A DNA stretch of 64,000 nt from Tubulanus polymorphus (Eukaryota; Nemertea; Palaeonemertea; Tubulaniformes; Tubulanidae), in assembly GCF_964204645.1 (NCBI RefSeq), contig NC_134028.1:8721001-8785000 (forward strand), written 5' to 3'. A program made the translations under genes and the position numbers. Each line of letters starts with the position of its first letter. Position 1 is the stretch's first letter. Positions 1 to 24,354 of the stretch are shown piece by piece. The notes beneath the pieces were generated by a model, which was not told the origin of the DNA, did not search any database, and saw only the letters and a list, made by a program, of their open reading frames with translations.

Positions 1-768
1 ATCGTTAAAAACGCGACGGTTGTAGTGAATGTGATAAACGGGTTTAAGTTAACGTGGAGTAAACAAGGAGATATCGACGTTTACGTTACACCGAGTTGGC
101 AGGATAAATTAGGCGGTATTTGCGGTAATTTCAATCAGGTCGTTAAAGACGATACTCGAACGAAAGCGAAGCGAGAAATCGTCTCAGACGCGGAGGTTTT
201 CGCTAAGTCTTGGCGAGTCGGCGGTAAATGCAACTGCGATGAACCGTTCAACAGTAAAAAGTCATCGTGTCAAACAATCGATCAGAGAGTTCGCGCTCAT
301 CAGAAATGTGATATCCTCAAGAGTCCATCGTTCAAGAAATGCCACAAGAAAGTTCCCGTCAAACCTTTTCTCAGGTAAATATCTCGTGTTATGTTACATT
401 TTCCTACCCTCCTTATATGAGTAATGCTACGGAAACTGCGATGAAATGGAGAGAGTCTTATAACTAATACATTACATATTCTTTACAGGGCTTGTACCGA
501 TAACGTTTGCGAATGTCCTTTGGGTAAAAACTGCGAATGCGCCATCGTGAAGTTTTATATGAGAGAATGCGCCGAACACAACGTAAATCTGAAATTACCG
601 AAAAATTCTGCATGTAAACCTTCTACTCAACGACAACATGACTCCAACTCGAAGAAACATCTGAAAAAACAAGAAAAAAAGAAAAGACGAGGAAGAGTTC
701 CTTTGTTGTTGCGATCATTGGGAGGAGTAATTATTGGTGACGAGTTAGAAAACAACATATTGGACTAA
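1..768 (+). CDS. BMPER-like VWD/C8 protein, partial second copy (3' end)
   Basis: Two exons are visible. One runs from the window edge to 374 and ends at a GTAAAT donor; the other runs from 489 (after TTTACAG) to the TAA at 766-768. They encode the end of a von Willebrand factor D domain (the GICGNFN calcium-loop motif), a C8-type Cys-rich region with CNC, CDILK and CECPLGKNCEC, and a basic Lys/Arg tail. The amino acid sequence is nearly the same as exons 7 and 8 of the complete gene on the other strand (22941-21826), with about three differences in 117 residues of exon 7 and about eight in 82 residues of exon 8. Exon lengths and phases are identical and there is no internal stop. Whether this copy has VWC exons cannot be seen because the window starts inside exon 7. 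It could be a functional paralogue, a truncated duplicate or an assembly duplication. Confidence 0.8.
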
Positions 769-1300
769 TTTGTGATTATTTGTGCTAATTGGAATATATG
801 GAAAATATCACTGCCGTTTAAAAAGTTGGACATCGTGTATTTACGTGTATCCAGTGAACATATTATTTGATATGAGACTATGTTTTGATTCTGTTAATAA
901 TTGTTATTGCTGTTTTAGTTTCGTTGTTAATCTTACATTCTTTTTCAGAGTTGTCACTAGTTATTGGTTTTTATTGCATTTCTTGTCTAATTATTAATTT
1001 TGTTTACAGGATTTTGTATATGATTGTATATGATTGTATTTTATATATATCATAGTTATAAGATAATTCTATATTTTGCCTTAGATGCCTTTTAACATCT
1101 TTACTTTGTTTTGCAGGGTGTAAACTTATGTACATTTATGTTATATTTTACGTTAATTTTTTCATACAATGTGCTTTTTTCCTCATCGCATATTTAGTTG
1201 TATTGATTTGTTACTAATTACTCTTTATTTCAGGACCAAATGTAAATGCATGTTGTTGTATAACTATTATCAAAATATACTAGTTGAAATAAAACATTTT
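769..1300 (+). terminator. 3' UTR and polyadenylation signal of the left BMPER-like copy
   Basis: AT-rich untranslated sequence follows the stop codon. An AATAAA hexamer lies at 1288-1293, and the right-arm copy has the matching hexamer in reverse at 21226-21231, so the signal has been kept in both copies. Several short ORFs here are AT-rich chance frames. Confidence 0.5.
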
Positions 1301-2856
1301 TGTCTTATTATTTTTAACGCAATTTTGTGTCAAATTCACATATTTCTTTTTCGAAGGCTTTTCACTATACGATTTTAAAAGATCGAGCAATCGTTTTAAT
1401 TATGAATAATGCAATTCTACCTCCTGCGTTATGCAATGATGTAAATTGAGGTACAGCCCTACAGGAAACAGCTTACGTGAAAACTGTAGGTAAAATGACC
1501 AGATTTATCAATGGTATATGATACTGAATTCATCGTGGTACTTAATACAGTTTTTTTGGAGTTATCATAAAATAAACCTCTGAGTCTTATCCATTGGTTT
1601 TGCAACGTTAGTAAATTGGCGCCAATAACTCCATAAACTTAAGCAAATTGTATCAAGGATTATGCTCCTATGTACTATTACTTATCTGTGTTTCATTACC
1701 CGATGGAGCCCCAATCTTTATTTGTTTCAACATCTGTCAGTACATCGTGCGTGTAACAACATTTACTTCACTTTTTGTACGTAAGATATTTTACATAAAC
1801 TTTTTGTTTAACTGGATTAATATGATACTTATACGTATCGGAATGACATCTCTGGCGTGTAAAATTAATATTTTGATGTTTGAATTGGATTTCTTGGCGA
1901 GTAGAATATGATACATTTAGCGGATTGGATTCGAGGTATAAAATATATGCACCGACCGCGGGCGTATTATATTATGTCTACGTTCGCTATTGAGGAATTT
2001 GTCTATGCGTTCGTTTTTCAAATGGAATTCATCCTAGGATTCGTTAGATACGCTTTTTAGCCTGGTGCCCTTTTACGTCAACACTGAGAATATGACCCGT
2101 GTCAAAGACCTGAATTTCAAAATGTGAAGTGAATTTATTAATCAACGAAATATCGGTCGTATCAACGGCAACAGTGTTAGTGGAATGAAAATACCAACAA
2201 CTTTCTTTCCTCGAATCCCAGAAAGGATGATTTGTTTCTATGAATTTTTTTCTATTCGTAGTTTCATCATTGAATTGAGAACTTTGGAACTGAAATTTCT
2301 ATGATTTTTGTTAAATTGTGGACGGAGTTCGATTTATGGAAATCAGAGACTGTGGAATTGGAACGAAATTATAATGAAAACAACACGTGGCACTTTCCGT
2401 AATGATTCGAAGAATATTATTGTTGGCAGTTTTGTAACACGTTGACTAATATATCATAGTACATGAAAAATCAAAGCTGTACCTTTCTAAGTTGAAACGC
2501 AACTGATTACGAGAACAAATTGTCATATTTTGATGACGTAGCTAACTGACCGACAGCAATCGTCGAAACCCGACAGTAGAGTCATAGTTAAGTACATCCT
2601 ATAATCGACATAAGATATGGCAGAAAAATCTACGAGAAATGATTTTTGTACATATTTCAGAAGAATAGAAATTTCATATTATCAAGTTGAGGTGCAGAGC
2701 TGATAGTCAACTAGATGGCGTTTACTTGACGAAATCGCATAATGAACGATAGACTGTAATGATGGCATTTCTGCAGTTTTTCCGCGTTGATACGTCAACG
2801 TTATCTATATATCTTCCGAGCGAGTTGCGATCTGAAATAAAAACGAAAAACGACAC

Positions 2857-3807
2857 TTACAAGTCGTTTACGATGATGCCTCTCGTTTCGAAAAATACAT
2901 TCCTTATTTCATTCCTGATTTCTTTTCCCGTCAGCAAATATAAGTAGAGATTATACGAATAGTTTATTATGAGAATATCGGTAAGGGCAGTGAAAATTTT
3001 CTTTAATTCGGGATTATTCCAGAGGAAAGGGCTAATTATAGAGAAGGGAAATGTTGTGACCATGAAGAAGATGCAAAGTAACACGACCATAACGGTCACC
3101 TGGTTCGAATATTTCGATGCTTGATTAGCCTTCAGGTTTCCGGCATATTTTCTTTTGAATAAAGCGACGGAGGTAATTGTGGATAAGATGGTGAGTAAAC
3201 AAAATGGACTCCCAGAAATGAACAGCAGAGCCCTGATTTGGTACAATCTTTCGTCGCTGGTACAACCGATTTCACTGACGTTGATTGTTACAAATATATA
3301 ACTGTACGTCAATGCTATTAGGCATGCTATTGATAAACATAACCTAGAGCTGGTTGCGGGTGTCCAGAACCGGGGACCTTTAAACGGAAAACAAACCACA
3401 CACATTCGTTCGGTGGCTACGAGCACCAGCGTCCACGGACTCCCCGTACAACCAAACATGACGATATACTCGAAAAACATGCACTGAATTCGCGTTGACG
3501 GTTTGATAAGTAAAGTCCCGTAAAACGAATGATATATAACGTTGACGTATTTATTGAAAAAAGCGCTGAGGACGATAGTGTCGCAGACAGCCAGTTGAAC
3601 GAACATCCGACTGAAGGAACGTCGCCATAATTTAGGCCGCTGCATAACGATTACGATCAGAGGATTACCGGTGAATCCTAGAATATAACAAAGACTCGTG
3701 AACACGAGGTAAATCCATAGATAAGATCCATTTACCGTGGTTGCACCCGCTATGATAGATACATATATGTTAGTCGCGCTCGTTCGGTTCTGAAGATGGG
3801 GAGTCAT
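2857..3807 (-). CDS. Orphan rhodopsin-family GPCR, copy A
   Basis: An intronless ORF of 316 residues with seven hydrophobic segments and a plausible start (ATG at 3807). TM1 has GFTGNPLIV (the class A Asn), TM2 has LAVCD (the sodium-site Asp), and the end of TM3 has ATERMCVVCFPF in place of the usual DRY box, keeping the Arg. TM6 (CIFFMVTTFPF) lacks the usual CWxP. TM7 has NYSYNLYLYLLTGKEIRNE in place of NPxxY and then a short tail. N-glycosylation sequons (NRT, NGS) lie near the N terminus. It resembles lophotrochozoan FMRFamide-receptor-like orphan receptors; the ligand cannot be inferred. It is the most divergent of three copies (with 10737-11687 and 17582-18520), for example MTPHLQNRTSATN against MTLDLQNRTSPTN. 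The frame is open throughout. Confidence 0.85.
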   Translation of the reverse strand: MTPHLQNRTSATNIYVSIIAGATTVNGSYLWIYLVFTSLCYILGFTGNPLIVIVMQRPKLWRRSFSRMFVQLAVCDTIVLSAFFNKYVNVIYHSFYGTLLIKPSTRIQCMFFEYIVMFGCTGSPWTLVLVATERMCVVCFPFKGPRFWTPATSSRLCLSIACLIALTYSYIFVTINVSEIGCTSDERLYQIRALLFISGSPFCLLTILSTITSVALFKRKYAGNLKANQASKYSNQVTVMVVLLCIFFMVTTFPFSIISPFLWNNPELKKIFTALTDILIINYSYNLYLYLLTGKEIRNEIRNVFFETRGIIVNDL

Positions 3808-4739
3808 CTAAATTGATAGTTCAAAAATGCTTATAGATACGCAGCACTAATGTATTGTATTCATCTCGTAAAAGGAAGCTTGCATCGATATGAAATTATA
3901 CATTCATATGTCTAAACGGGCAAAATACGATATTTTGGCGAGTAGAATGTGATATTTCAAACTGGTTAATAAAATATGATATAGTTTGTACGTATTATAT
4001 CTTGATGAAATAACACATATTGATTCAAATTTTTGGGATGTTTGTAGATTTTGACGCATTTATTAATTTCGTTACTATTTTGACAAAATTTGGTAAATCG
4101 ATACTTTTTACGAAGTAGCATATATTAATTAGAATATATAGTACATGTTTTGACTTTTAGGTGGCGCTGCTAATAAAAGCCGCATCATGTAAACATTGAT
4201 AGAAACGAACGTATTTGTACATATTGTAGTCTTAACAAAATCGGCGATGAATTCCATTTTCTTTTTAATGTTCCAAACTAAACAATATACGAAGAGCTTT
4301 CCTAACACCTTTTTATGTAAATAGAACCAATACTTTTAGTCACAATTACTTAATGCTGTAAATAACAATATATTAATTAAACTCGCTAGATTTGTAAATG
4401 CTGGTCTCAAGCTACTTAAGTAAAATTCACGTATACATATCTGTTATCTCTATTATTATTCTATTCTATGTGTATCTCTGTTTTCTTGTTTTTAAGTTTT
4501 GTAAATTATCAATTTTATTGTACAAATTCTTTTAACCTCTATACCAATGTTTGGTTAGAGCGAAATAAATAAACCTAAAACCTAAGCATCTCCTAAGCAT
4601 CTCATACGAAAAAGAAAGAAGAAAGACTATGTACAATAGGTAATTCCGGCAAAATTTGTGATGAGTACCATTATCTAATGATCTGTCATTCTCACACCAA
4701 GCTAAGAAGAAGATACCTAACTAGTTAAATAAAGCCATA
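3808..4739. other. Gene-free flank of GPCR copy A
   Basis: AT-rich. The first 300 bases are the duplicated 5' flank shared with copies B and C, with the recurrent ATGATATTTTGGCGAGTA motif near 3930. Beyond about 4100 it is unique. A possible LINE 3' end with AATAAATAAACC and a CCTAA-type tail lies near 4564-4590. I see no coding exon. Confidence 0.4.
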
Positions 4740-5315
4740 AAAAGAAGCTGTATAGTGCTTCATTGATTATGCAAAGGCCTTCGATTCAAAATGGAGAAGA
4801 ACACTATGGCATATGTTAATTTTAACGGTTGTAACCGGTAATGTGCTCCAATTGATTAAGAATATACATTTTCATGTTAAATCATGTCAGCAGTTAAGGC
4901 CACTGGGCTAACTTCAAAATACTTTGACAGCAACACTGGACTACGTCAAGGTGAAAATTTATCTTAAGTGCTCTTCTCCGTATAAATATGTATATCAATG
5001 ATTTCGAAGATTATTTGTATCTAGATGGGTGCCAAGGTATCAATTTAGTAGTTGATGGCAACGACAATATGTGGCTGAGGTTATTAGTCCTATTGTACAC
5101 CGATGAGACTATTTTACTGACTGACAGTGCCGATAACCTGCAGCATTTACTTACCTCTGCTTCAAAATACTGCGAGCTATGGAAATCATCTATTAATATT
5201 GAAAATACAAAAGCAATGGTGTTTGAAAAAAAGAAGAGCACGGCGTCAGCCTACCTTTTTCATAGACGGTAACCAAATTGAAGTGGTCAAAGATTTTCGG
5301 AGTTATTTTTAATTA
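4740..5315 (+). mobile_element. Decayed LINE reverse-transcriptase fragment
   Basis: Broken reading frames carry recognisable non-LTR reverse-transcriptase blocks in the right order. FIDYAKAFD (catalytic motif A) is near 4760, TGLRQGE near 4940, YINDFEDYL near 4990, and a degraded catalytic box, YTDETILL where YADD would be expected, near 5095. ELWKSSIN and TKAMVF follow near 5175-5220. The second catalytic Asp is changed and the frames are interrupted, so this copy is inactive. It is too short to assign with certainty; the motif spacing suggests a CR1/Jockey-like clade. It lies between the duplicated GPCR unit and the foldback element at 6462. Confidence 0.75.
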
Positions 5316-5691
5316 TAATGACTCGTTCACGAAATGTAGAAAAAGTGCATGCAAACATAAATAATTCTAGCAAATGCTCAACATACCGATTGCTTAAAAC
5401 GGATTGAGGCCAAGAACATTTTCTTTTTTACCGATTTGACAACTGGTTAAAATTTGTAAATTTAAGTACTCAAATCACAACCTACCAATAGAAACGATAT
5501 ATCAACCTACCAATAGAATCGATATATCCATACACCACGCAAGGCGAGGATAAATACGTACGCCGTGGCAGTAATCGTCTCGGGGATGAATTTCATTATA
5601 TATTTGAGTTTTGATGCCATTAAAGATTTGAGACAACGTACGTTACGTATTCCTTTTTTTAATAACTTTAAAGCTGTTATGTTTTTTGTTT

Positions 5692-5713
5692 CTGTACTGT
5701 ACTGTACTGTACT
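5692..5713. repeat. (TACTG)n microsatellite
   Basis: About four tandem TACTG units lie in AT-rich noncoding sequence. The surrounding region 5316-6461 has no gene that I can support. Confidence 0.7.
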
Positions 5714-6461
5714 AAACACTGTATTGATAGAAATCATTATCTACGCTCATTGTATATGTATACATGGAGCAATAAATATATTTCAATTTGAATTTCAGTT
5801 ATTATTACGAAAATCAAACCGAGCTAAAATATTCGAAAACGAAGGACTTTATATTATTATTGAATATTATAGATATGTTGAAATGATCTGTAAATATTTT
5901 GTTTTTACATAGTGTATTAATGTTTTTACATAGTGTAATAATATGCATGTTTTTCCATATCCAAATAGTTCAACATTAAAAGTGGCTAAATTCATAAAAA
6001 CAGATCTAGATGTTAAGATTCCTCAGTAGCATGTATATTGTAAATAGTATGTTGCAAATAACGTTTGATAATTTTTGAAATTCCATTATTTTATGTTTTT
6101 GGGTAATTGTAGCTTTATCGGTCGTGAAAGGACTAATTCATTTCGCGCCGCCCTTGTATCCTAGTGTGCGTGTGCGGGAAAATTAAGCCCAGCATTTAGA
6201 CAAACCTCGAAAGCGTGTATGCATCATGACCGTATATGATACATAACTGGACAAAAATGGAGAATGAAAACTAATTAAGAAAAAAACCAAAAATCATATA
6301 CTTCTGGTACGATCGCGCTCATCAATCTAATTTCCTATTCAAAATCAGGAATAAAGTAGTGGGATACTGTTTAAACTTTGCGTTCTCCGTACCAGCACTA
6401 GCAAATTCTGTGAGTCGCGCATTCGGTAAAGTAGTCGCAAAAACATCTAACTACGGGCTAC

Positions 6462-6739
6462 TCTGGTGGCTGATTCGGGCCATAACGTAAAATTCCTGGT
6501 TTGCAAATGAGGGCGCCAGAACGCCAGACCGCCAAAACGAAAAAACGTCGAATTTTCTCTCAAAGTCAGTTTTGGCGCGCCAAAACAAAGAATATTCTGT
6601 TTTGGCATCCCCGCCGTTTCGACGTTTTTCGCTGTTTTGGCGGCGACGTTTTTTTCCGTTTTGGCGTTCTGGCGTTCTGGTGCCCTCATTTGCATACCAG
6701 GAATTTTACGTTATGGCCCGAATCGAATCAGCCACCATA
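6462..6739. mobile_element. Foldback (palindromic) MITE-like element, 278 bp
   Basis: The two ends are long imperfect inverted repeats. The left end reads TGGTGGCTGATTCGGGCC and continues through GTAAAATTCCTGGT; the right end is its reverse complement with one 5-base difference. The inverted repeat extends inward through the GCCAGAACGCC and GCCAAAAC stretches, so most of the element can fold into a hairpin. It is bracketed by GGCTAC at 6456-6461 and 6740-6745, a candidate target-site duplication. The ORFs seen on both strands here are mirror images created by the palindrome and are not genes. Confidence 0.8.
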
Positions 6740-7264
6740 GGCTACAATATGAAACTATCACGAGATTGTTTAACACTAGTTACGCCGATATTGGTTCCAG
6801 TGTTTGGGGAAGTATGAATCATAACATATGCGAAAAAATTAAGTTCAGCGCAATGCGTACTTTAATCGGAATTGGTAGATCACCACCTAAAGCCAGCATT
6901 GAGGACGACGTGGGTTGGTCTCCAAGCCATATTTTCCTTACATAAACTGTGTATTGTTCACCTGTGGATCCGTATAAATAACCTCCAGCAGATATCCCTG
7001 CAAGAATCTACATTCTGGCGTTTCAAATAGGTTTTCAGTCTATTAGATATAAACTGCGTTTGATGAATGAGAAATGATTAAGTATGAAAACTGTTTGTCG
7101 TAAATTGAATGGTCAAAAATATTTACAACAGGAGACAATTCTATAGAGAATCAGCCTCTAATTATACGTGGACTCTAGATTCAAATTTCCATAAAAATGC
7201 ATAGCAAAACTAGAACGTAAAACCGTAATCCTTTTAGCCCTACCTTAGCCCTCTCTCCCCATTT

Positions 7265-7420
7265 TCAACGATCAAACTTGGGATTCTTAGCATTCAAACT
7301 TAAACCAGTTTGTCCGCAGTAATGTCCCGGGGTACAAGCGTCGCACGAAGCGACCTGCATCAAGCCGGTGCGATTACTGAACGTTCCCAGCGGGCATTGA
7401 ACCCCTGTGACGCTGCCGAC
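7265..7420 (-). CDS. Orphan Cys-rich exon (GCC2/GCC3, ephrin-receptor-like module)
   Basis: A short minus-strand open frame of 51 codons follows a plausible acceptor (TTAAAG at 7421-7426) and ends in TGA. It encodes CPLGTFSNRTGL, then CDACTPGHYCGQTG. This matches the GCC2/GCC3 or ephrin-receptor-like Cys pattern (CPxGTYSNxTGL, then CxxCxPGxYC) found in large extracellular matrix and receptor proteins. No neighbouring exons of such a protein were recognised on either side, so it is either a stray duplicated exon or the last exon of a gene whose other exons I could not detect. The pattern match is good; the gene status is uncertain. Confidence 0.45.
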   Translation of the reverse strand, partial: VGSVTGVQCPLGTFSNRTGLMQVASCDACTPGHYCGQTGLSLNAKNPKFDR

Positions 7421-7578
7421 CTTTAAGGAATGTTGGATGTTATTTCAGAAATAGATTTTTCTTACAAAAATTGGATTAAAAACATGATATTGAATATAAC
7501 CTCAACTTCGGGTCGTTTAACATCAAAATATAAGTCAACAAATAGCCTAACCCTAGATCGACCATATAACCCAATCTA

Positions 7579-7640
7579 ACCTCTATCAAGACTTGAACCC
7601 AGGCCTCTAACATGCAGCGTCTACCCCTAGACCACAGAGT
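7579..7640 (-). mobile_element. tRNA-derived SINE head or tRNA pseudogene
   Basis: On the minus strand an A-box-like TGGTCTAGGGGTAGACG and a B-box-like GGGTTCAAGTC are about 30 bases apart, as in a tRNA-derived RNA polymerase III promoter. The stems do not close as a normal tRNA, so this is read as a SINE head or a decayed tRNA copy. Confidence 0.5.
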
Positions 7641-7689
7641 TGAAGTAACCAACTTAGTTTCTAAGTTTGTCCGGTCGGGTGATAGTGAC

Positions 7690-7910: not shown

Positions 7911-8285
7911 CACTAACCCGCTACCATTCACTGGTGCCTGTGCGTGTAGCTAGGGAAATTCCAAGGTCACTGCAATCATCTGTTCTAATGATGACGGTTG
8001 ATAGTATCCTGATCTTGAGGAATGCAATAAAAAGGACTGTGATTGGTTAATTGCAGTATATCCCTACGCGCAGTTAATGATATAAAATAGCTTAAGATTC
8101 ATCGTATGTTTCTGGCTGTTTAAATTCCAACGTCAGATAACGAAATTATGAGTATCGTTTTTAATGACTCGTGATACAAATACTGATATCGATGCTGCAC
8201 CAATTAGGGTTTGGTCGTCACCAGACACAATTTCTTTCCCTCTTGGATAAAGCATAGATTGGAACGCTGCAGCATCCGAACTATA

Positions 8286-9395
8286 ATGGACATACGTGCA
8301 ATCGTTACGACTCCATCCGAGCGGCTTAACGATGACTCACATGGTTACGAACGTAGCTATCGTGATAATTGTGGGGTTACTTCATTACGCGCAACTTTCG
8401 ACATATACATAAATCTTTTCGGAGCCTTCCCCGTCATGCTACTAGGCATAATCTTAAACATTTTGATTATCGTTACACTACGAATACAGAGTTCAACTTA
8501 CATCTCGTATTATCTTTTACGCTGTTTGGCTTTTTGGGACATAATGTTTTTGATATGGCGTGGGATGCAAGGACCAGTACGTTATTTACTAGCAGTGCTT
8601 ATACAAGGTGACTTCATATTTGAAATCCATTGGCATTCTAATTATATGCCATGGCTTTATGTCATAGCGCATTTACCACGATATGCCTCTCAATTGACAC
8701 GGAATTGGATAACTGTCGGTGTCGTCGCACAACGAACTTTCTCAATTCTATTTCCATTTTTTGCGAAACGAAATATCACAAAATTTCGAATCAAAGTCCT
8801 GATAGTTTTAGTTTTCATAATTTCTGCAGCAATGTATAGCCCTTATCTCGCTACCGTAAAAATCATATATTTTTGGGATGTCTGCACAAATCGTCTTCAA
8901 ATGGATCTCCGTAAAAGACAGAGTAAACAATTGAAAGCTATTTTTTCAGCGCTTTTTGCCGTTTACGGGCCACTTTCTAAGGAATACCTACCGATTGTAT
9001 TATTGATCATTTTCAATACAATTATGATAATAAAACTGCGACAAATTCAGAATAAACGGAAAGATGATTTCACGTCACACGGAGGTGAGGATAAAAATAA
9101 AAATATTGATATCAAAGCTACTAAAATGGCAATATCAGTTGTTATAGTTTTCATCATTTTTGAAGCACCCGGCTCTATCTCAACGGTATACGGTCATATG
9201 AGGTCACGATTCAAGAATCTTCCTCCTTTACCACAAGCATGGCATGCCTATGTCAATCAAACTTTTAGCGCATTATTCCCAATGTTGAATTCAACCTCTA
9301 ATTTTCTCTTGTACTGTATTGTAAATAGTTCGTTTAGGAAAACAGCGCAGAATCTTATAACATACCAATGTCAACGAAACGCGATGAGCAAATAA
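8286..9395 (+). CDS. FMRFamide-receptor-like class A GPCR
   Basis: An intronless ORF of 369 residues from the first ATG (8286); the open frame begins further upstream, but without an ATG. A hydrophilic N terminus is followed by seven hydrophobic segments. TM1 contains LGIILNILIIVTL and TM3 ends in VVAQRTFSILFPF, where the DRY position reads AQR with the Arg kept. The third intracellular loop is basic (RQIQNKRKDD). TM7 reads NSTSNFLLYCIVNSSFRK, a form typical of FMRFamide-receptor-like and other lophotrochozoan peptide receptors. The protein is unrelated in detail to the A/B/C copies around it. The likely role is a plasma-membrane neuropeptide receptor coupled to G proteins; the ligand is unknown. 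Confidence 0.85.
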   Translation: MDIRAIVTTPSERLNDDSHGYERSYRDNCGVTSLRATFDIYINLFGAFPVMLLGIILNILIIVTLRIQSSTYISYYLLRCLAFWDIMFLIWRGMQGPVRYLLAVLIQGDFIFEIHWHSNYMPWLYVIAHLPRYASQLTRNWITVGVVAQRTFSILFPFFAKRNITKFRIKVLIVLVFIISAAMYSPYLATVKIIYFWDVCTNRLQMDLRKRQSKQLKAIFSALFAVYGPLSKEYLPIVLLIIFNTIMIIKLRQIQNKRKDDFTSHGGEDKNKNIDIKATKMAISVVIVFIIFEAPGSISTVYGHMRSRFKNLPPLPQAWHAYVNQTFSALFPMLNSTSNFLLYCIVNSSFRKTAQNLITYQCQRNAMSK

Positions 9396-9599: not shown

Positions 9600-12130
9600 T
9601 TCAGCGGCTTGGATTTGAGGTGTAGAATATATGCACTGACGACTGGTATATGATATCATGTCTATGTGAGGAATTTGTCTGTGCATTCGTCATTCAATTG
9701 CTAGGACTTTTAACGTTCGAATCGTCGATTATTTCAGGACTTTTTGGATACGCTGTTTAGCCTGATGCCCCTTTCTGAGAAAATGGCCCGTGTCACAGAA
9801 CCATTTCAAACTTTAAAATAAATTCATTCATCATCTATTTGATCTTTCATATCAACGGCAACAGTATATGTCCAATAGAAATACTAACAACTTTCTCCCC
9901 TGTTGACTACGTAATAGTAAAATGATTATAAAGGGATATGTGTATTTTATCGACTAAATCAATCAAACCTATGCTGGTGTAGTTGACCCATTCAACGGAC
10001 GATATGTATTCAAATTGAGACGCTGGTGCTATCCGCGCATATAAGGTAAAATCTGAAAGTTCAAAATCATCGGGAATCCCTAAGAGAAGGACGTGTCTAT
10101 AAGGAAAAGAAACTACAATCTCTTGATTTCATGTTTTCATCCAAGAATTGAGAAAATTAGGAATTGAAATTCCTATGATTTTTGTCAATTTACGACGAGG
10201 TTTGATACAATAGAATTATACGTGGAAATTCCCGTAATGATTCAGAGGATAATGAATATTAATATTAAGTTCGCTGTTTATAACACTTTGAATACATCCT
10301 ATTTTCTATAAATCGATGCTCTACCTTTCTTTATTGAACGCAGTTGATGACAAGACGGAATTATAACATTTTTATGACGTAGCTCACTGACTGACTGCAA
10401 TCGTTGAAACGCCACGGAAGAGGCAAAGTTAGATACATCCCATTATCGACATAAGATATTTGTTCTTATAGAATAGGAGAAAAACTTACAAATGAAATGA
10501 TCTGTTTTTGTGTTCAGATGACGAGAAATTTCATTAGTGACTTAGCGCGCAGAATTATCAAAAGTTGAGGTGAACTATTGTAAGCAAATGCTGCAGCATG
10601 GATTCAATTTGAACGCAGAGTTAATACCCGAGCTATGTAAACTAGATGACGATTAATTGACAAATTAGGTAGGCTGGTAGGCAAATGGTAGGCTGTGATG
10701 GAACGAGTTGCTAGAAACGAATGTATTAAAAAACATTTATTGGTCATTTATGATGATGCCCCTCGTTTCAAAAAATAGATTCCTTATTTCATTCCTGATT
10801 TCTTTTCCCGTCAGCAAATATAAGTACAGATTATACGAATAGTTTATTATAAGAATATCGGTAAAGGCAGTGTAAATTTTCTTTAATTCGGGATTATTCC
10901 AGAGGAAAGGGCTCAGTATAGAGAAGGGAAATGTTGTGACCATGAAGAAGATGCAAAGTAACAAAACCAAAACGGTCACCTGGTTCGAATATTTCGATGC
11001 TCGATTTATCTCCATATTTCCGGCATATTTTCTTTTAAACAGCGCGACGGATGTAATTGCGGATAAGATGGCCAGTAAACAAAATGGACTCCCAGAAACG
11101 AACACCAGAGCCCTGAATTGATACAACCTTTCGTTGCTGGTACAACCAATTTCATTGACGTTGATAGTTACAAATATATAACTGTAAATCAATGCTATTA
11201 GGCAGACTATTGATAAACACAACCGAGAGGTGGTAGCGGGTGTCCAGAAGCGGGGCCCTTTAAACGGAAAACAAACCACACACATTCTCTCGGTGGCTAC
11301 GAGCACCAGCGTCCACGGACTGCCCGTGCAACCCAACATGACGATATACTCGAAAAACATGCACTGAATTCGCGTTGACGGTTTAACCAGTAAACTTCCG
11401 TAAAACGAGTAAGATATAACGTTGATGTATTTATTCAAATAAGCGCTGAGGACGATAGTGTCGCAGACAGCCAGTTGAACGAACATCCGACTGAAGGAAC
11501 GTCGCCATAATTTAGGCCGCTGCATAACGATTACGATCAGAGGATTACCGGTGAATCCGAGAATATAACAAAGACTCGTGAACACGAGGTAAATCCATAG
11601 ATAAGATCCATTTATCGTGGTTGCACCCGCTATTATAGCTACATATATGTTAGTCGGGCTCGTTCGGTTCTGAAGATCGAGAGTCATCTAAATTAACAGA
11701 TCAAAAATGCTTAGATACACTACACTTATGTATTGTATTCATCTCGTAAAAGAAAGATTGCATCGATATGAAATTATATATTCTTTAGTCTGAACGGGCA
11801 AAATACGATATTTTGGCGAGTAAAATATGATATTTCAAACTGGTTGATAAAATATGATATAGTTGATATTACATCTTGATGAAATATCACATGTTGATGG
11901 GAGTTGTTTCTTTTTACAGTTTGTAGATTTTGACGGATTAATTTATTTTGATCTTAAGAAAATATTTAGGTTAAAACCCTTTGTTTTAGCAGACAAAGGT
12001 GTGTTCGTAAAACGTGCCGGTACGTTTTCTTGATTGTGTATGAATCAGCCTTGGCGTGGCGTATGTCGCGGATGATACTCGAATGACTATTAAGTACTAT
12101 TACTTAGTATCAGTAGTTTTCGACGTATTC
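9600..12130. repeat. Third copy (B) of the GPCR duplication unit
   Basis: From about 9600 the sequence tracks the left arm from about 1915 (GGATT, GAGGTATAAAATATATGCAC and neighbouring blocks) through the GPCR gene and its 5' flank. Beyond the point where the left arm fades, it continues to track copy C: the block at 11990-12125 matches the reverse complement of about 17130-17260, including CAGTAGTTTTCGACGTAT. Orientation is the same as copy A and opposite to copy C. No BMPER-like exons accompany this copy. Confidence 0.8.
10737..11687 (-). CDS. Orphan rhodopsin-family GPCR, copy B
   Basis: An intronless ORF of 316 residues with an ATG at 11687. The domain pattern is the same as copy A: GNPLIV in TM1, LAVCD in TM2, ATERM at the end of TM3, FMVTTFPF in TM6 and NYSYNLYLYLLTGKE in TM7. 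The N terminus (MTLDLQNRTSPTNIYVAI) is identical to that of copy C, and most replacements that separate it from copy A are shared with C, such as SAYLNKYINVISYSFYGSLLVKPS against the C form with one change. The frame is intact and ends ETRGIIINDQ. The presumed role is an orphan peptide receptor. Confidence 0.85.
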   Translation of the reverse strand: MTLDLQNRTSPTNIYVAIIAGATTINGSYLWIYLVFTSLCYILGFTGNPLIVIVMQRPKLWRRSFSRMFVQLAVCDTIVLSAYLNKYINVISYSFYGSLLVKPSTRIQCMFFEYIVMLGCTGSPWTLVLVATERMCVVCFPFKGPRFWTPATTSRLCLSIVCLIALIYSYIFVTINVNEIGCTSNERLYQFRALVFVSGSPFCLLAILSAITSVALFKRKYAGNMEINRASKYSNQVTVLVLLLCIFFMVTTFPFSILSPFLWNNPELKKIYTAFTDILIINYSYNLYLYLLTGKEIRNEIRNLFFETRGIIINDQ

Positions 12131-13028: not shown

Positions 13029-15379
13029 TTAATACAGGTGAATTTTTCCATTTGTATTATCTGCCACTACAAGCGTGCAGTTATTGGTAATACCTATACC
13101 CCAGCTTTTATGATACCCTAGTTTTATAGTACAAACAGGGTTGAAATATTCATCAAACATTCTGATATTATATGAAGCCAAATCGCCGAATAGAACATTA
13201 CCAACGTCATCGATCTTAATCTGGATTGGTCCTCCGAAACCATTCAAATATTTGATTTCTCCATTTTTGATAACTTTTACCCGTTGCCTATTATATTCGG
13301 TCACTATCATTTCTCCATGTTTCGTGAACGCTACGTCAAGGGGCCGAGAAAAACTTGTCCCGCTTATTTCGTCGATAGATCTTTCGTATTCCCCCTCCAA
13401 GGTGAACACGGCTATTCGATTGTGATAACAATCTGCCACATAAATTTTGTCTTCTAGAATAGTTACTCCATAAGGATAACTTAAGTACCCTCGGCCAAAA
13501 CTCCGAACGTATCGCCCTTTCATTGTAAAGATATGAATATTTTGATTGTTGCCCGCATCACTAACCAAAATAGTTCCATCACCAGGCACATAGAGTCCGG
13601 TCGGAACCATGGTGTTATACATTGATCCAAAACTCAAGGTGTTCCGTTCTCCATTGCCATCTAAGGCGACTAATCGATGATTATTCGTGTCTGATACTAT
13701 TATATCGCCGTCCGAGGTTGCAATATACGTTGGATTGTTGAAATAATTATATGTTTTGAATGGAGTTCCTATGTTCTTGCATCTTTTTGAAAGATCACAA
13801 ATGCCTGAAACTTAAATAAAAACAAATCATGAAACAAACCAACGGAAATTGGACTTTTGACTGATCAAATACATGTTTAAACTAACTATACAGATGCTTT
13901 ATATAATTTCAGGATTCTTCTTTTTTCCTTACTATATAACTATTTGGTTTTTCACCGCGAACCCGTGAGGAAGTACCCTGGTAGTGTCAGTGGAGTCTAG
14001 CCCGGAGTACCGAAAAGAGGAGGGGTTACTTCAGTAGTACCTTCGAAGTTCGCGATCAATTAATTTCTGACTTGCAGGCTTTTTTACTCCAGGGTACTCT
14101 AGGATTGTTTGAACTCTAGAGACGTAGAAATCTTGCTCGGGTGAACAATTTTTTAATTTCTTAATTTCCTATGACCATCAAGTTGTAGAGGAAATGTATA
14201 TGTTTTACATACTTAAACGATTTCATTTATCTTTTCTAATTATGTTTGTAGAGGCTTTTTGAGAATCGAACTTTGTTCATCTATGTTATTAATAACATCA
14301 AGATATGACGTCATCTGATAGATTTTGAAGAAAAATCGCGGATATGGGTTCTTTGACGTATACCCTATCTAATTTAAGTAAGAAAAAATTTTTGATACAT
14401 CTTGAGTCATTATAAATGGTTTCAAAATTGTTTCGGTGTTTTCACGGTATTTTACTAGAAATGGCTGGGATGATTGTTGCAAAATAAACCAATAGTTTAA
14501 ACCGTCCATGCACCGCTGGCATCTATGGTTTTAGATATTTACCTGGTCGTTTCGTGCTAAATCCTGAAGGCGAAGGCTTTAAAGATACGGTTTGTTTGTT
14601 ACCAGATGTTGTGGTTTCTGCATGGAGCTTCGTTTTTGGTTTAGTGGTATAGGATTCTTTTGTTGTTTGGGTCGACGTGCCATTGGAAACAATAGCCTCT
14701 TTTCTCCAATCTGGTGTATTGAGGTACGGTTTCACTTAAAAATACATAGGCCTATTACTTATTTATCATTTTTAATCAGAGTATTATGTTCTTATATCCC
14801 CCCATGAGCGATCCTAGCGCCATCGCTAATTGGCACTGGTAATTAATTACACTATAGAAATCGTATTTAGTATAAGTACATGTATCGTTGGTATTAGAGC
14901 ACTAAATGCGTTACGGCTTTGGGCCCAGGCTCTTTGAGACTAAATTTTTATAAAAACCTTTTTGTAAAATGACAACACATGACTTAGCGAGTATCGTTAT
15001 ACCAATAACTCCTTTTGACGAAAATCCACTACGGTAGAGGATGGCGCTGAGCCCTCATGGAATGAGTGTCGTTGATTTATACAGCCCCCCCCCCCCACCG
15101 CTCATTCAGACTCAACATACTTACCCATTAACACTGTAGCGATAATCACAGAAATCAAAATGATGCACACACCAATCACGTGGAGGATCTGAAAAATGTT
15201 TTTCTTGCTTTAAACGACGAAATAAACGGCATCGTGATTCCAGCATTCTGATCAATTATTCCTTTTTTATGGGTGTTTTTCCCTTCCAACTCGTACCAAG
15301 AATTCGACTGATCCACATCATTATTCGTGTCATTTTCGTGCATGCCTGCATTCTCCATTGCTGTTTTTATCTGTCTCAT
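13029..15379 (-). CDS. Type II membrane protein with Thr-rich stalk and NHL beta-propeller
   Basis: A four-exon model: 15379-15297, 15207-15125, 14734-14543 and 13804-13029 (377 codons). All introns are GT-AG and the phases agree (2, 1, 1). Exon 1 gives a short hydrophilic cytosolic start (MRQIKTAMENAGMHENDTNN). Exon 2 gives KKNIFQ followed by one hydrophobic helix (ILHVIGVCIILISVIIATVLM). Exon 3 is a Thr/Ser/Lys-rich stalk (TSTQTTKESYTTKPKTK). Exon 4 is about 258 residues of NHL repeats, seen as PTYIATSDGDIIVSDTNNHR, GTILVSDAGNNQNIHIF, DKIYVADCYHNRIAVF, GEMIVTEYNRQRVKV and later blades. The order implies an extracellular or luminal propeller anchored by its N terminus. The NHL domain resembles those of TRIM-NHL proteins, but there is no RING or B-box. 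The exon 1-2 junction is the least certain part: an alternative acceptor at 15188 does not fit the exon 1 phase. Confidence 0.7.
13972..14098. mobile_element. Short inverted-repeat element in an NHL-gene intron
   Basis: AGTACCCTGG at 13972-13981 and its exact reverse complement at 14089-14098 bracket about 107 bases. A GTTCGCGATCAATTA stretch inside recurs near 27346-27360. It is probably a small nonautonomous element; no target-site duplication is obvious. Confidence 0.4.
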
Positions 15380-15990: not shown

Positions 15991-17159
15991 TGAAATACGT
16001 CACCAACCATTCCCATTAAACTTAGTGCATATTCTTTCATTCCGTTCAATGTGGTGATATCTACACACCTCTGTAACATCTACCCGCAGTGCTACTGTGG
16101 CAATCGAGGATTATGGCAGGCGAGGATTCGCAAAGTTTGCTAGTGGATAATTGGTCGTTCGCGTTCGATTTCTTCTACATTTCAATGAAATCTGAATGAA
16201 CTTTTCTCTTAAATGAATCGATTTCTCATATACCTAATTCGTATATTTGGCGGCTGCTGTGATAATATATGGAGCGGGGAGTCACTAAAATCCAGTTCAA
16301 AGTTCATTGAAAATGAAGTAAATTTGACACCGGACGGCCTACTGCTCGTCACGCCACCTGGCGGGATAGCTGGCTTTGCGGGTACCTCATTTACATTATC
16401 ACCCATACCAGTTATTCAAATTAGCGCACATTCATGGTAAACTTATTGTAGTAGAGTTTACCAGGAAGTCACTGGATTAAATGATCAAATTTCAGGACAG
16501 GCTCCATCTCCTTTTTGTCAATGGTTTACATGAATATATCATAAAATAAGTTCAAAACATGATATCACCACTAAATTCCGGTTAAAGAAGCTAAGGTTTA
16601 CCTAAGTTACCTTTACAAATTCAACTTACAAGTCTTGATTGTGTTCTTCATGCAAAATCGAGTATTAACCCCAAAATTTTACCTACGGGCCTTGATTCGA
16701 ATATCAAATGGTATCCTTCCTGGTCAAATTTGGTATTGACATTTGGCTAAATATATATGTAAAAAAGTTAAATAAATGTATATATCCATATTGCAGAACA
16801 GTCAGAGTTAACCAGCGGATAGTTGATATAGTGACGATTAAAAGTTCATTGTTACGTTAGCATTTATCCGCCGGTTATTTGAACCAACTCTCGAGCAACT
16901 GGCCCCTGAATGTTGAAATTGATCCGACCTTAACATTCGGAAAGCAGTATCAAAGTTGTCGAATTTATTGAGAACAAATAGAAGAGACTTCTTTGCATAG
17001 TCATCAGTTAATTACATTTTGAAAGGTTTCCGACCTGTAGAATTGCAGAGTTCACCTGAATATCTAATCAAACGTACAATTGAAAACCCATCGACGTTAG
17101 ATACAGTTTACCAGTCAGCGGCCATATGTCGAAAATTACTGATACCGATTATTACAATA
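15991..17159. other. Gene-free interval
   Basis: No supported gene. Short open frames overlap on both strands at 16209-16440, but neither has a recognisable motif or a convincing pair of splice sites. Confidence 0.35.
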
Positions 17160-17581
17160 TTAACAGTCACTCAAGTATCATCCACGATGTCACCACGCCA
17201 GGGCCAATGATTCATCACTATGAAAAGAAAACGAACCGTTACGTTTTAGGAACGCACCTTCGCTAGGTGAAACAAAGGACTTTAACCCAAATATTGTCGG
17301 CGAGAACAACATTTTTTAATGCGTCATAATCTACAAACTGCCTGAATACAAACACCCCAAAGATTCCCATCAACATGTGATATTTCATCAAGATGTAATA
17401 TCAACTATTTCACATTTTATTAACCAGTTTGAAATATCATATTTTACTCGCCAAAATATCATATTTTACCCGTTTATACATATAATTATATATAATTTCA
17501 TATAGATGCAATCGTTCTTTTACGAGATGAATACAATGTATAAGTATAGAGCATCTAAGCATTTTTGATCCGTCAATTTAG

Positions 17582-18520
17582 ATGACTCTCGATCTTCAGA
17601 ACCGAACGAGCCCGACTAACATATATGTAGCTATCATAGCGGGTGCAACCACGATAAATGGATCTTATCTATGGATTTACCTCGTGTTCACGAGTCTTTG
17701 TTATATTCTCGGATTCACCGGTAATCCTCTGATCGTAATCGTTATGCAGCGGCCTAAATTATGGCGACGTTCCTTCAGTCGGATGTTCGTTCAACTGGCT
17801 GTCTGCGACACTATCGTCCTCAGCGCTTACTTCAATAAATACATCAACGTTATATCTTACTCGTTTTACGGAAGTTTACTGGTTAAACCGTCAACGCGAA
17901 TTCAGTGCATGTTTTTCGAGTATTTCGTCATGTTGGGTTGTACGGGCAGTCCATGGACACTGGTGCTCGTAGCCACCGAACGAATGTGTGTGGTTTGTTT
18001 TCCATTTAAAGGTCCCCGGTTCTGGACACCCGCTACCACCTCTCGGTTGTGTTTATCAATAATCTGCCTAATATCATTGATTTACAGTTATATATTTGTG
18101 ACTATCAACGTCAATGAAATTGGTTGTACCAGCGACGTAAAGTTCTACCAAATCAGGGCTCTGGTGTTCATTTCTGGGAGTCCACTTTGTTTACTGGCCA
18201 TCTCATCCGCAATTACCTCTGTCGCTTTATTCACAAGAAAATATGCCGGAAACCTGGAGACAAATCGAGCATCGAAATATTCGAACCAGGTGACCGTTTT
18301 GGTTTTGTTACTTTGCATCTTCTTCATGGTCACAACATTTCCCTTCTCTATACTTAGCCCTTTCCTCTGGAATAATCCAGAATTAAAGAAAATTTACACT
18401 GCCCTTACCGATATTCTTATAATAAACTATTCGTATAATCTCTACTTATATTTGCTGACGGGAAAAGAAATCAGGAATGAAATAAGGAATCTATTTTTCG
18501 AAACGAAAGCATCATCATAA
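17582..18520 (+). CDS. Orphan rhodopsin-family GPCR, copy C (C-terminal frameshift)
   Basis: An intronless ORF of 312 residues with an ATG at 17582. It carries the same seven-helix pattern and motifs as copies A and B, and its N terminus is identical to that of B. The C terminus differs: where A and B read ETRGII and four more residues, this copy has lost two bases in the GAGGGG stretch near 18504, so it reads ETKASS and stops four codons earlier. The loss affects only the last residues of the cytoplasmic tail and would not obviously destroy the receptor. Confidence 0.85.
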   Translation: MTLDLQNRTSPTNIYVAIIAGATTINGSYLWIYLVFTSLCYILGFTGNPLIVIVMQRPKLWRRSFSRMFVQLAVCDTIVLSAYFNKYINVISYSFYGSLLVKPSTRIQCMFFEYFVMLGCTGSPWTLVLVATERMCVVCFPFKGPRFWTPATTSRLCLSIICLISLIYSYIFVTINVNEIGCTSDVKFYQIRALVFISGSPLCLLAISSAITSVALFTRKYAGNLETNRASKYSNQVTVLVLLLCIFFMVTTFPFSILSPFLWNNPELKKIYTALTDILIINYSYNLYLYLLTGKEIRNEIRNLFFETKASS

Positions 18521-19605
18521 ATTACCAATGAATGTCCTCTTTTTCGTTTTTACTTCAGATCGCAACTCGCTCGGAAAAACGCGGAAAAACTGCAGAAATG
18601 CCTTCATCCCAGCCTACCATTCATTATGTGATTTATTCAATTAATCGTCATCTAGTAAACTTAAGTATCAACTCTGCGATCAGAATGATCAAAATAAATC
18701 CATGCTTAGCATTGCTGCACCTCATTCTGCATGTCACGTTACTACTTTTTCTAAATTTCTTTTCTTCTGAAATATAAACAAAATTATCACGTTGATTTTG
18801 CTGTCATTCTGCAGACACATCCTTGGTCTGAGCAATCTATTTTAGCCCCTTTTGTGGCGACTCAACAATTGCAGTCAGTGAGCTACGGCGTCAAAATATG
18901 ATAATTCGGTCTTGTCATCAATTGCGTTTCAACTTAGAAAGGTACAGCTTTAATTTTTTGAATAATGATGTATTCAACCTGTTACAAAACTGCCAACAAT
19001 AATATTCACAATCCTTCAAATTATTACGGGAAGTGCCACGTGTATTTCTATTCCAATGTCGTTCCTATTCCACATTCTCCGATTTACATAGAAGCCGAAT
19101 ATCCGATGGATTCGGACTACTGGCCACTCAATTTGAATACATGCTCGTTGATCGAGTCAACTACACCAGCATAGGTCTGATTGATTTTGATCGATTTAAT
19201 ACTTACGCCCTTTTAAGCTACAATTATGTGCGTATAGAATAGAAAAGAAAGTCGTTTGTGTTTTTATTCCACTAACACTGTCACTGACATATTCTCAGTG
19301 TTGATGATGGAAAAGGCTACCAGATATTAAAAGTCCTAACTATTGAAAAACGAATGCATAGACAAATTCCTCAATAGCAGACATAGACATAATATTACAT
19401 GCCCGCGGTCGGTACATATATTTCACACCTCGAATCCAATCCGCTAAATGCATCATATGCTACTTGCCAAGATATCAAATTCAAACATCAAAATAACATA
19501 TTCTATACGCCGGAGATGTCATTCCAATACGTACAAGTATCATATTTATCCCAGTTAAACAAAAAATTAATGTAGCATATCTTACATACAAAAAGTGATG
19601 TAACG

Positions 19606-20000
19606 ACCAAAAAATATAAAAGTGGACAAAATGATCTTCAACCTTGTAATATAGCTATTTCCAGAATATCAATGTATTAAATTAGGCAGCCAGAAAAATT
19701 CATCCCAATCAGTCGCTTGCCGGTTCAGACTGAATGGAAGATTGTTTGGATGAACCGGAACCGAATTTCCAATTATGTACTTCGATTTAAAAATATTCTG
19801 TTAACTCGACCGCCGATCAGACAACTACATCTGTACTTCGATTTCCGATTTCAAAATCAAACCCCCTGTTTCGCTCCCCGCCGGCAGGTGTGGTGGGTCA
19901 GCAAGGGAAACTCAATCAAAAAATCAAACGAAATTTATCAATCAAATGAATAAAATAACGGGGACAAACCCTATTTTAAGATCAAAAAAGTGATGTAACG
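19606..20000. mobile_element. 395-bp insertion flanked by a 16-bp direct repeat
   Basis: The 16-mer AAAAAGTGATGTAACG occurs at 19590-19605 and again at 19985-20000. The left arm has a single corresponding site (near 1770-1785, reverse complement), with the flanks joined. This is the pattern of a retroposon insertion with a target-site duplication. The inserted sequence encodes nothing that I recognise and lacks a clear poly-A or tRNA head. Confidence 0.6.
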
Positions 20001-20239
20001 GTTGTTACGCACACGATGAACTGACAGATGTTGGAAACAAGTTAATGTTGGAGCTGTTCCCCAGCCTGCCGATACAACAACCTGACGGTTACACTTCTTC
20101 GGGTAATTAAGCACAGATAAATAAGATAAGTACATACGTAGGAGCATGATCGTTGATGTAATTTGCTGCAGTTCATGGACGACTTATTGGCACAAGCTAC
20201 TAATGTTGCGAAACCAACGGATAAGACGGATGATTAGGT

Positions 20240-20920
20240 ACAGTACAACCTTGCTATAACGAACTCGGGAACAACGATTCAGCGCACATAACAAATATAA
20301 GACAATATATAAGACAATTTGTTTTAAATTCATACTGGACGTATCGGCCCCACTCCGCGATTTACGCGAAGCAGCAAACACAAACATGGCCACTCTCTCA
20401 ATTTTCAACGATAGAAATCGTGTGTGCATTTCAATTATTTCGGCTGTTAGGGTTTTAAGGCACAATATAAGTTGATGATGTGATATGGCGATGTTAATTA
20501 ATGATAATTCCGCAGTGAAGCTAGTCACGAACGGTGCCGATTGAGTGTACAGCTGCCAAAAACACTGAAATGTGCGTAGTTGCGTAACTATTTGCAGTGA
20601 ATTGCAGACGAAACATGAAGCCTTAACGGCCGTTAAAAAAAAAGTTATACCAATCGCAATTGTAAAATAAAAATGAGATAGAACCTAAGTTAAAATTCTG
20701 GCCATTTCTAAAATGTTATTACTAATTTTTAGTCAGTGCCGAACGTTTAGTTTTCCAACAATAATGAGGGGTGGTAGGTAGTCATGCAATTCAAGTCATC
20801 ATTTTTGACACGTTACTTCCGTGTTGTTGAAAATCTCGCGAGTCCTGGACCAAACCCCAATGAACAATGTTATCTGTGTGCTGGCCACAAATGCACGCAG
20901 ATCACACTATACTACCCATT
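20240..20920. mobile_element. About 680-bp insertion present only in the right arm
   Basis: Sequence on both sides aligns with the left arm (about 1500-1680), but these bases do not. The ends are approximate, no inverted repeats or target-site duplication were found, and the open frames inside have no motif. It could be a mobile element or a deletion in the left arm. Confidence 0.4.
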
Positions 20921-21225
20921 ACACACTCCAGTACCCACAGCTTTCATATATCCATCCAAATATTTAGTGTCTTTCTTCCTGGGTACTCATGTTTATCGTA
21001 TACGAATATATCATACACCATCAAATAAAATTTGACCATTTTACCTTCACTCTTCACGTAAGCCGTTTCCTGTAGGGCTGTTCCTCGGTTAACATCATTG
21101 CATAACGCATAGGTAGATTGCATTATCCTTGATTAAAACGATTAATCTTAAAAATCGTAGTGAAACGCCTTTGAAGAAAATAAGTGAAATTGACACAAAA
21201 TTTCGTTAAAATAGTGAGACAAAAT

Positions 21226-21231
21226 TTTATT
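21226..21231 (-). terminator. Polyadenylation signal of the BMPER-like gene
   Basis: AATAAA on the minus strand, about 600 bases downstream of the stop codon, in the position matching 1288-1293 of the left arm. Confidence 0.5.
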
Positions 21232-21825
21232 TCGACAATATATTGATGATAGTTATACAACTAAATTTACATTTTAGTCCTCTGAACCTTAGCATGTATT
21301 TATTTTGTATATACCATTGACTTGTTTAATAAAATTAATTTGTATTTAAAAAAAGTCCTGAAATAAAGAGTAATTAGTAACAAATCGATGCAAATAAATA
21401 TGCGATAAGGGAAAAGCACATTTTATGAAAATATCAATTCATAAATCATAGAATTAATTTACATAAGTTGACACGCTGCAAAACAAAGTAAAGATATTAA
21501 AAGGCATTTAATGCAAAACATAGAATTATCTTATAACAATGATATATATGATACATAATACAATAATGCACAATAAAATACAAATCCTGTAAGCAAAAAT
21601 ACAAGAAATACAATTGAAAGTTATAACTAATGACAACTCTGAAAAAGAATGTAATGTAAGATTAACAACAAAATTAAAACAGCAATAACAATTGATAACA
21701 AAATAAAAACATAGTCTCTTTTCAAATAATCATTGTTCACTGGATACACGTAAATTCACGATGTCCAACTTTTAAAACAGCATTGATATTTTCCATATAT
21801 TCCAATTAGCACAAATAATCACAAA

Positions 21826-24337
21826 TTAGTCCAATATGTTGTTTTCTAACTCGTCACCAATAACTACTCCTCCCAATGATCGCAACAACAAAGGAACTCT
21901 TCCTCTTCTTTCCTTTTTCTCTTGTTTCTTCAGATTTTTCTTCGAGTAAGAGTCGTGTTGTTGTTGAGTAGAAGGTTTACACGCAGACTTTTTCGGTAAT
22001 TTCAGATTTATGTTGTGTTCGGCGCATTCTCGCATATAAAACTTCACGATGGCGCATTCGCAGTTTTTACCCAAAGGACATTCGCAAACGTTATCGGTAC
22101 AAGCCCTGTAAGATATATATAATGTATTAGTTATAAGTCTCTCTCCATTTCATCGCAGTTTCCATAACTTTGCTCATATAAGGAAGGCAGAAAAATGTAA
22201 CATAACACGAGATATTTACCTGAGGAAAGGTTTGACGGGAACTTTCTTGTGGCATTTCTTGAACGATGGACTCTTGAGGATATCACATTTCTGATGAGCG
22301 CGAACTCTCTGATCGTTTGTTTGACACGATGACTTTTTACTGTTGAACGGTTCATCGCAGTTGCATTTACCGCCGACTCGCCAAGACTTAGCGAAAACCT
22401 CCGCGTCTGAGACGATTTCTCGCTTCGCTTTCGTTCGAGTATCGTCTTGAACGACCTGATTGAAATTACCGCAAAGACCGCCTAATTTATCCTGCCAACT
22501 CGGTGTAACGTAAACGTCGATATCTCCTTGTTTACTCCACGTTAACTTAAACCCGTTTATCACATTCACTACAACCGTCGCGTTTTTAACGATTTCTATA
22601 GTGAAGTTTTCGTGTTTGTACGGAACACGGATTTTACTACGATTTACTCTGATATCGAGATCTCTGTGTAGTCCGATAGATAATGAAGACACGATGATTG
22701 TGACTAGTTTCGTTCTCACTGTCGGGTACGGGTGGAACTCGTTTTTGACGCGGATGTTTATCTGACGATCGGCGACATCTTGAAGCAAAGTGTAGCGACA
22801 AGTTCCACCGAATTTGAAATTGAACCCGTCAAACGATGCGTACGACAAATAATCCTTGTTCGAACCAGTGAGGGAACAAACGCTGTGAGCTGGTACACAT
22901 AACGCGCAGCATTCTCCTTGCGGTCTGTATAAAATGGATTTCTGAAAATATATCAGAAATGACGTATCAATAAATGGTATTTGGTTCATAAATTTAGGTG
23001 ATTTCAAAGGAAAACTTAAATGAAAATCTAAACGATGATATCTAATTATCTACCTGTGGGCATTTTGGAGTTAATCCGCATGTGATTTTTTGGCAGGTCG
23101 CCTTTCCGTCTTTACAACTACAATCCGTACAGGATCCGTCCTTCCAACTCTGATCAATCTATGATTGGAGAAATAAAGAGTTTGAAAGTTAAAGACATAT
23201 TAAAATAAAGATTGGAGTCAAGTCAAATAGTGATATGTTTTACCTTGTACATTTGTCCTTTATATGCACACCCAGCCGGCCGCTTACATTTCGGACAACA
23301 CGACTTTTTATCGAAGACCAAGAATTCTTTTGGACAGTTTAGATCTGGACAAGCTTTACGATAACACCGCATCCCGCCGTCGTAACATGAACACTTCGTA
23401 CATTTATCGGGCATAAAATGTCGCCTCTCCCGATGAAGATGACCTCGAAACAAACAACTCCCGTGAATAGAACTGGCCGTTACAGCTTTTCCTGCAATGA
23501 AAACAATTAATTGGTTTTAAGGAATAAATGACATGCACATCTATCAAGTTTTATCATGTAATCATTTAAAACATCTGTATAACTCGTATAGTTACCTTTA
23601 CAAACTGGACAGCATTGATTTTCTTCGTGCGTTTGAAATTTGTGTGGACAGTTTAAAACTGGACAAACCTTCTGAGTGCACGTCAATTCCCCCGACTAAA
23701 ATGATAGATTACGATACATATTCATATCTTTACTATGACCAACTAATCATTTCTAATGTTTTCATTATCTTTAGAAATCTAAGTTTACCTCGCATTTACA
23801 AGTTGTACATTTTTCACCAGGTTTTATGATTGATTTGCCATTTTCTACGGTAACTCCATTGACAACGCATCCTTTTGTATTTTCTTTCTCGCTGCTGCAG
23901 GCGGGGCAACATTGTCCCGGTTTGTAAATCTGTTCACGGCATACTGGACGACATTGTATCGAACTATGAGTCAAAACACCAGCCTGGAAAATGTCAACAC
24001 ATATATACTTCATATCTCCACTTTGTTGATAATACGACACACATGTATATTTTCAGTTGCGTCATTTGTCTTATTGCTAATCATTCTGAAACTTACCGAG
24101 CACATATTCAATTTACAGGGATCTTTTTCGTCGATCCATTCGGATCCACTTTCATGTTCTTTATTGTGGTATTTACAACCTAGAATTACAGAAAATACTT
24201 TCAATAGCAAAATATGATCTTTCATCAAACACGATGTCAGTTATATTCAGCGTCACTGATATGACAGGCTGCTTACCAGTCACCGAATAAACTACTACGA
24301 TCCACCAGACAATCGTTTTCAAAATGTAATTATGCAT
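21826..24337 (-). CDS. BMPER: BMPER / crossveinless-2-like secreted BMP modulator
   Basis: A complete eight-exon model: 24337-24277, 24179-24097, 23983-23789, 23695-23596, 23491-23244, 23158-23054, 22941-22220 and 22105-21826. All junctions are GT-AG and all phases agree (597 residues). Exon 1 is a signal peptide (MHNYILKTIVWWIVVVYSVT). Exons 2-7 encode four VWC modules, each ending in the CCPxC pattern (GQCCPAC, NQCCPVC, SCCPKC, GECCALC). Exon 7 holds a VWD domain (YASFDGFNFKFGGTCRY, then GLCGNFNQ), and exons 7-8 a C8-like Cys region followed by a basic tail. The VWC-VWD order is that of BMPER/crossveinless-2, an extracellular protein that binds BMPs and tunes their signalling. Compared with the vertebrate protein there is one VWC fewer, no GDPH cleavage motif at the start of the VWD, and no C-terminal TIL domain. 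A kielin/chordin-like relative is an alternative. Confidence 0.85.
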
Positions 24338-24354
24338 ACTGATCGGTAATCTTT

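Follow-up and report, generated by a model that had tools for sequence, protein, structure and literature searches.

The stretch of DNA analysed here (the window, 64 kb, C4:8721001-8785000 of a 268-Mb assembly in 77 contigs) holds two arms of an inverted duplication, each carrying a BMPER-like gene and, convergent with it, an intronless GPCR gene, and between the arms a spacer with a third copy of the receptor (Table 1). The arms were mapped by comparing the window plus 40 kb of upstream sequence with itself, and they appear as two largely collinear reverse complements on one gap-free contig; neither the window nor its 40-kb upstream flank contains an N. Identity is 79-96% where the arms are aligned in main blocks and spans 67%-96% over all arm blocks of this comparison. 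The main block pairs 21355-25098 with 1236 to -2515 (89.5% over 3,796 columns), the outermost pairs 25193-25468 with -2824 to -3110, and chance is ruled out as the source of the similarity (E = 0 over kilobases). The outer flanks of the left and right arms differ.

A previous sequence-only reading had claimed such inverted arms, with BMPER-like exons 7-8 and a GPCR common to both, with intact coding frames, and with the full extent of the left arm beyond the window. Our analysis confirms each of these points, the added upstream DNA extending the left arm to about -3110. The right arm, which had been taken to end at 22600, in fact continues to near 25468, as the alignments reaching -3110 indicate. 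What stands of the earlier proposal, then, is a local inverted duplication with a BMPER-like gene and a GPCR; its limitation to a C-terminal cassette and its unrelated spacer do not survive, as described below.

Table 1. Features of the inverted duplication in window coordinates; negative values lie to the left of the window.
Feature	Position	Strand	Description
Left arm	about -3110 to 4069		~7.2 kb; 43% outside window, in-window part 1..4069; self-comparison
Right arm	17124/17347 to 25468		8.1-8.3 kb; reverse-complement copy of -3110..4069, largely collinear
Left-arm BMPER-like exons 1-6 and start of exon 7	-1746..-1 (C4:8719255-8721000)		left of window
Left-arm BMPER-like exon 7, 3' part	1..374	+	VWD end, C8 start
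Left-arm BMPER-like exon 8	489..768	+	C8 end, Lys/Arg-rich C-terminal tail
Right-arm BMPER-like gene	21826..24337	-	8 exons, 597 aa
Right-arm BMPER-like exons 1-4	24337-24277, 24179-24097, 23983-23789, 23695-23596	-
Right-arm BMPER-like exons 5-8	23491-23244, 23158-23054, 22941-22220, 22105-21826	-
Exons 6-7, right arm	22220..23158	-	near-identical between arms; 3 synonymous differences in ~175 sites
GPCR L, left arm	2857..3807	-	intronless, 316 aa, 7tm_1/Srsx-like
GPCR M, spacer	10737-11687	-	third receptor copy
Middle GPCR segment	10209..12128	-	contains GPCR M; inverted relative to right arm, direct relative to left arm
GPCR R, right arm	17582..18520	+	intronless, 312 aa, C-terminus slightly altered

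Genes of the two arms and the spacer

The right-arm BMPER-like gene was modelled by splice-site reading, and the left arm by exon alignment to that model; all eight exons align with identical GT/AG boundaries and the 597-aa frame is open in each arm. Both arms carry complete genes, not one gene and a "second VWD/C8 C-terminal cassette" as had been suggested; the left copy looked like a cassette because the left edge of the window cut through a full-length gene. The right-arm product runs from a hydrophobic N-terminus, which from its sequence is a probable signal peptide, through four VWC-like units, a VWD and a C8 to a basic tail. Pfam matched VWC in three stretches (E = 2e-25), the fourth unit being recognised by reading, VWD (E = 1.1e-25) and C8 (E = 3.4e-13). 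No Pfam match to a TIL domain was obtained in the protein, whose frame closes with the Lys/Arg-rich tail. The number of VWC-like units, four against the five of BMPER, is that of the 597-aa model, in which very short exons may have been overlooked. Structure prediction of the VWD exon, from a shallow alignment, gave a mean pLDDT of 30 and was set aside. Within 21826-22000 and in the paralogues, the stretch R-[VM]-P-L-L-L-R-S-L-G-G-V follows a Lys/Arg-rich run and is conserved across the copies on C4; that it serves as a putative processed peptide is conceivable.

All three receptors score above the Pfam cut-off for 7tm_1 and also match the Srsx and Srw models. Each keeps the Cys of TM3 and has another in extracellular loop 2, and 3/3 read ERM at the DRY position and NYSYNLYLY at the NPxxY position; structure prediction of the GPCR from a shallow alignment gave a mean pLDDT of 38 and was likewise set aside. 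GPCR M contradicts the description of the spacer as unrelated genes: its coding DNA is 92.6% identical to L and 95.6% to R, which makes M the copy most identical to R, and the segment containing it matches the right arm at 83% identity over 1,985 columns. We looked in the spacer for a BMPER remnant or a decayed BMPER gene and found neither. On the order in which the three receptors were copied the evidence is split: M is nearest R by protein distance, whereas the tree joins M with L with a support of 0.76.

Several other features lie in and around the spacer. Plus-strand frames at 4756-5272 resemble, by eye, the reverse transcriptase of a non-LTR retrotransposon (LINE), with no Pfam match for 4988-5272, and a ~280-base imperfect palindrome at 6461-6740 (75% self-complementary) is foldback-element-like. 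An NHL beta-propeller ORF lies between GPCR M and R (13029-13637, minus strand). Two more intact single-exon Srw/7tm-type GPCRs, at 8211-9395 (+) and 27913-28896 (-), are unrelated in DNA to L, M and R. Farther right, 37775-38204 and 46241-46673 form a direct repeat at 94%, beside which minus-strand ORFs resemble by eye parts of an SLC22-type transporter (no Pfam match at E 0.01); this is probably a second local gene duplication.

A derived BMPER-like family and its receptor neighbours

Protein search of the whole assembly revealed 13 derived BMPER-like copies, 12 on C4 (8.72, 8.74, 19.94 and 20.46-20.93 Mb) and one at C1:2.55 Mb, plus fragments. Apart from the two window genes, the copies at C4 20.881, 20.897 and 20.916 Mb gave complete, intact models; stop codons interrupt the copies at 20.932 Mb (exon 7) and 20.660 Mb (exon 3), and those at 20.537, 20.720 and 20.459 Mb miss exons within the sequence examined. 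Two canonical BMPER genes, at C1:4.70 and C4:24.81 Mb, encode CTVFGDPHYRT and have a TIL-like exon. GDPH is absent from 13/13 derived copies examined: the window reads GSNKDYLSY, and the derived loop can be written C-S-[LV]-[TN]-[GN]-[SM]-N-K-[DN]-Y-L-S-[YC], which carries an insertion of four residues. The derived copies also lack two Cys that the canonical VWDs possess, namely that of TRTC/TKLC and the first one in LCGLC; on sequence grounds this plausibly amounts to one lost disulphide. The window is one locus of an unusually expanded, BMPER-derived family, and our search of the literature on BMPER family expansion found no matching report.

Some 12 Mb away, at C4:20.88-20.93 Mb, four tandem units repeat the convergent BMPER-GPCR layout of the window, and in all four a fragment of a disrupted VWD exon sits between GPCR and BMPER-like gene. 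Between the window and this locus dS is 0.95-1.02 for the GPCR and 0.82-1.28 for BMPER (Nei-Gojobori estimates, approximate at values near 1). Matching dS and the shared layout make a common origin of the pair the simplest reading, and the BMPER-GPCR pair was probably duplicated as a unit. We consider it unlikely, but worth weighing seriously, that a receptor and a BMPER-like gene met independently at the two loci. The receptor belongs to a family of ~34 intronless copies with at least 56% identity to the window GPCR on at least 10 chromosomes, most of them located elsewhere without a VWD gene; in the tree the 20.88-Mb receptors fall inside a clade spanning many chromosomes, grouping with receptors of C7, C8, C9 and C11 and not with those of the window. 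Nor was a receptor seen in the sequence examined near the other six C4 copies (19.9-20.7 Mb) or the copy at C1:2.55 Mb, so that both genes do occur apart. Against such independent meetings stand the identical layout, the agreement of GPCR and BMPER dS between the loci (~1) and our own rough estimate that, with ~34 receptors in 268 Mb, a second chance neighbour within ~4 kb is expected at ~0.1% per locus.

A mobile element that spread the arms, carrying along the receptor, the VWD exons or both, is very improbable. The intronless, widely dispersed receptors and the LINE-like fragment in the spacer might suggest it, but the homology of the dispersed receptors covers only ~1.0-1.2 kb (the coding sequence and near flanks) and ends near the coding sequence, neither shared ends nor genes of an element were observed, and introns are kept in all intact BMPER-like copies.

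Divergence and probable conversion between the arms

Between the two BMPER-like genes of the window dS is 0.069 and omega 0.28, and their introns are 85.7% identical. Receptor dS is 0.18 for L-M, 0.125 for L-R and 0.122 for M-R, with omega of 0.20-0.44 across pairs. Purifying selection acts on the two BMPER-like genes and on the three receptors. That the arms are alleles or misjoined haplotigs is hardly credible, for in spite of the 99.2% identity of exon 7 the gap-free sequence, the inverted orientation, the third receptor in the spacer, the differing outer flanks, the purifying selection, and the intron and receptor divergence, with neutral sites ~12-16% apart, all speak against an artefact and leave unsupported the idea that only one arm exists.

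Synonymous divergence is uneven along the gene. Exon 7 has a dS of 0.02 and exon 6 zero synonymous changes, compared with values of 0.05-0.24 for exons 2 to 5 and exon 8 (exon 1, with 12 sites, also has zero); the copies are most unlike each other in exons 2, 5 and 8, and exons 6-7 have fewer synonymous differences than the remaining exons (Fisher p = 4.5e-4). Within the 20-Mb cluster, too, exon 7 dS falls below exon 3 dS for copies of the same locus (e.g. 0.08 vs 0.27), whereas between loci the two are similar (0.82-1.02 and 1.04-1.28). Low exon-7 dS within a locus combined with similar dS between loci fits local gene conversion, and we take the pattern to suggest conversion between the arms in exons 6-7; codon constraint could account for part of the low exon-7 dS.

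Proposed origin and comparison with known systems

The inverted duplication is real, old, made of two whole genes and ordinary in kind. We propose, with a probability of roughly 85%, that it arose long ago by local segmental duplication of a two-gene unit, and that it has been kept by selection and belongs to the derived BMPER-like family. The ancestral unit would have joined a secreted BMPER/CV-2-derived gene and a convergent intronless rhodopsin-class receptor gene, and would then have been copied in inverted orientation. The spacer receptor may have arisen when its segment alone was copied again, or may have lost its BMPER gene by deletion. Selection would retain the two BMPER-like genes and three receptors, while conversion between the inverted arms would hold exons 6-7 alike. 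The unit would represent one branch of a family with GDPH replaced, TIL not found and a basic C-terminal tail. Of this picture, the sequence itself shows the arms, the gene structures, their divergence, the number of paralogues and the lack of GDPH and of a detectable TIL; the succession of events, conversion, secretion, matrix binding and BMP activity are inferred. Inverted duplication being ordinary in itself, the value of the locus lies in displaying a gene pair apparently copied and homogenised as a unit.

The receptors resemble rhodopsin-class Srsx/Srw GPCRs in their 7tm_1, Srsx and Srw matches and in the two Cys positions, and differ from them in having ERM for DRY and NYSYNLYLY for NPxxY and in forming a ~34-copy intronless lineage family. 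CV-2/BMPER is a core BMP modulator with five VWC domains, VWD, C8 and a C-terminal TIL, and binds BMP via VWC1. The derived proteins share with it the domain order VWC repeats, VWD, C8, the probable secretion signal and the Cys before the cleavage loop; they depart from it in having four VWC-like units, G/N-x-N-K-[DN]-Y-L-S-Y with its four-residue insertion in place of GDPH, and a basic tail with no detected TIL. They also depart in number, with 13 derived copies here as against one to three CV-2/BMPER copies in several surveyed spiralians (Lingula 1, bryozoans 2, Phoronis 3; PMC13121700).

BMPER attaches to heparan sulphate proteoglycans through its VWD (PMC6456722), and by analogy the derived products are, most likely, VWC/VWD proteins that are secreted, bind the matrix and cannot be cleaved by the GDPH reaction. 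If binding of a BMP-type ligand persists, each might act as a local ligand-binding modulator without a releasable cleaved form. A bolder idea, to which we give little credence, is that the family, its cleavage site gone, TIL not found and its tail basic, has been repurposed as uncleavable matrix-held ligand traps or as a new signal, the receptor being kept adjacent through co-regulation or a shared pathway. In human BMPER the GDPH cleavage is autocatalytic, and P370L (GDPH to GDLH) causes DSD; the mutant protein is secreted without being cleaved, inhibits BMP less strongly and is more sensitive to proteases (PMC6456722, PMC10880436). The derived proteins likewise lack a functional GDPH site; unlike P370L, a single substitution in an otherwise canonical protein, they have a rebuilt loop and have lost a second VWD Cys pair, and the two canonical genes together with the 13 GDPH-less derived ones make up a natural experiment on the purpose of the cleavage.
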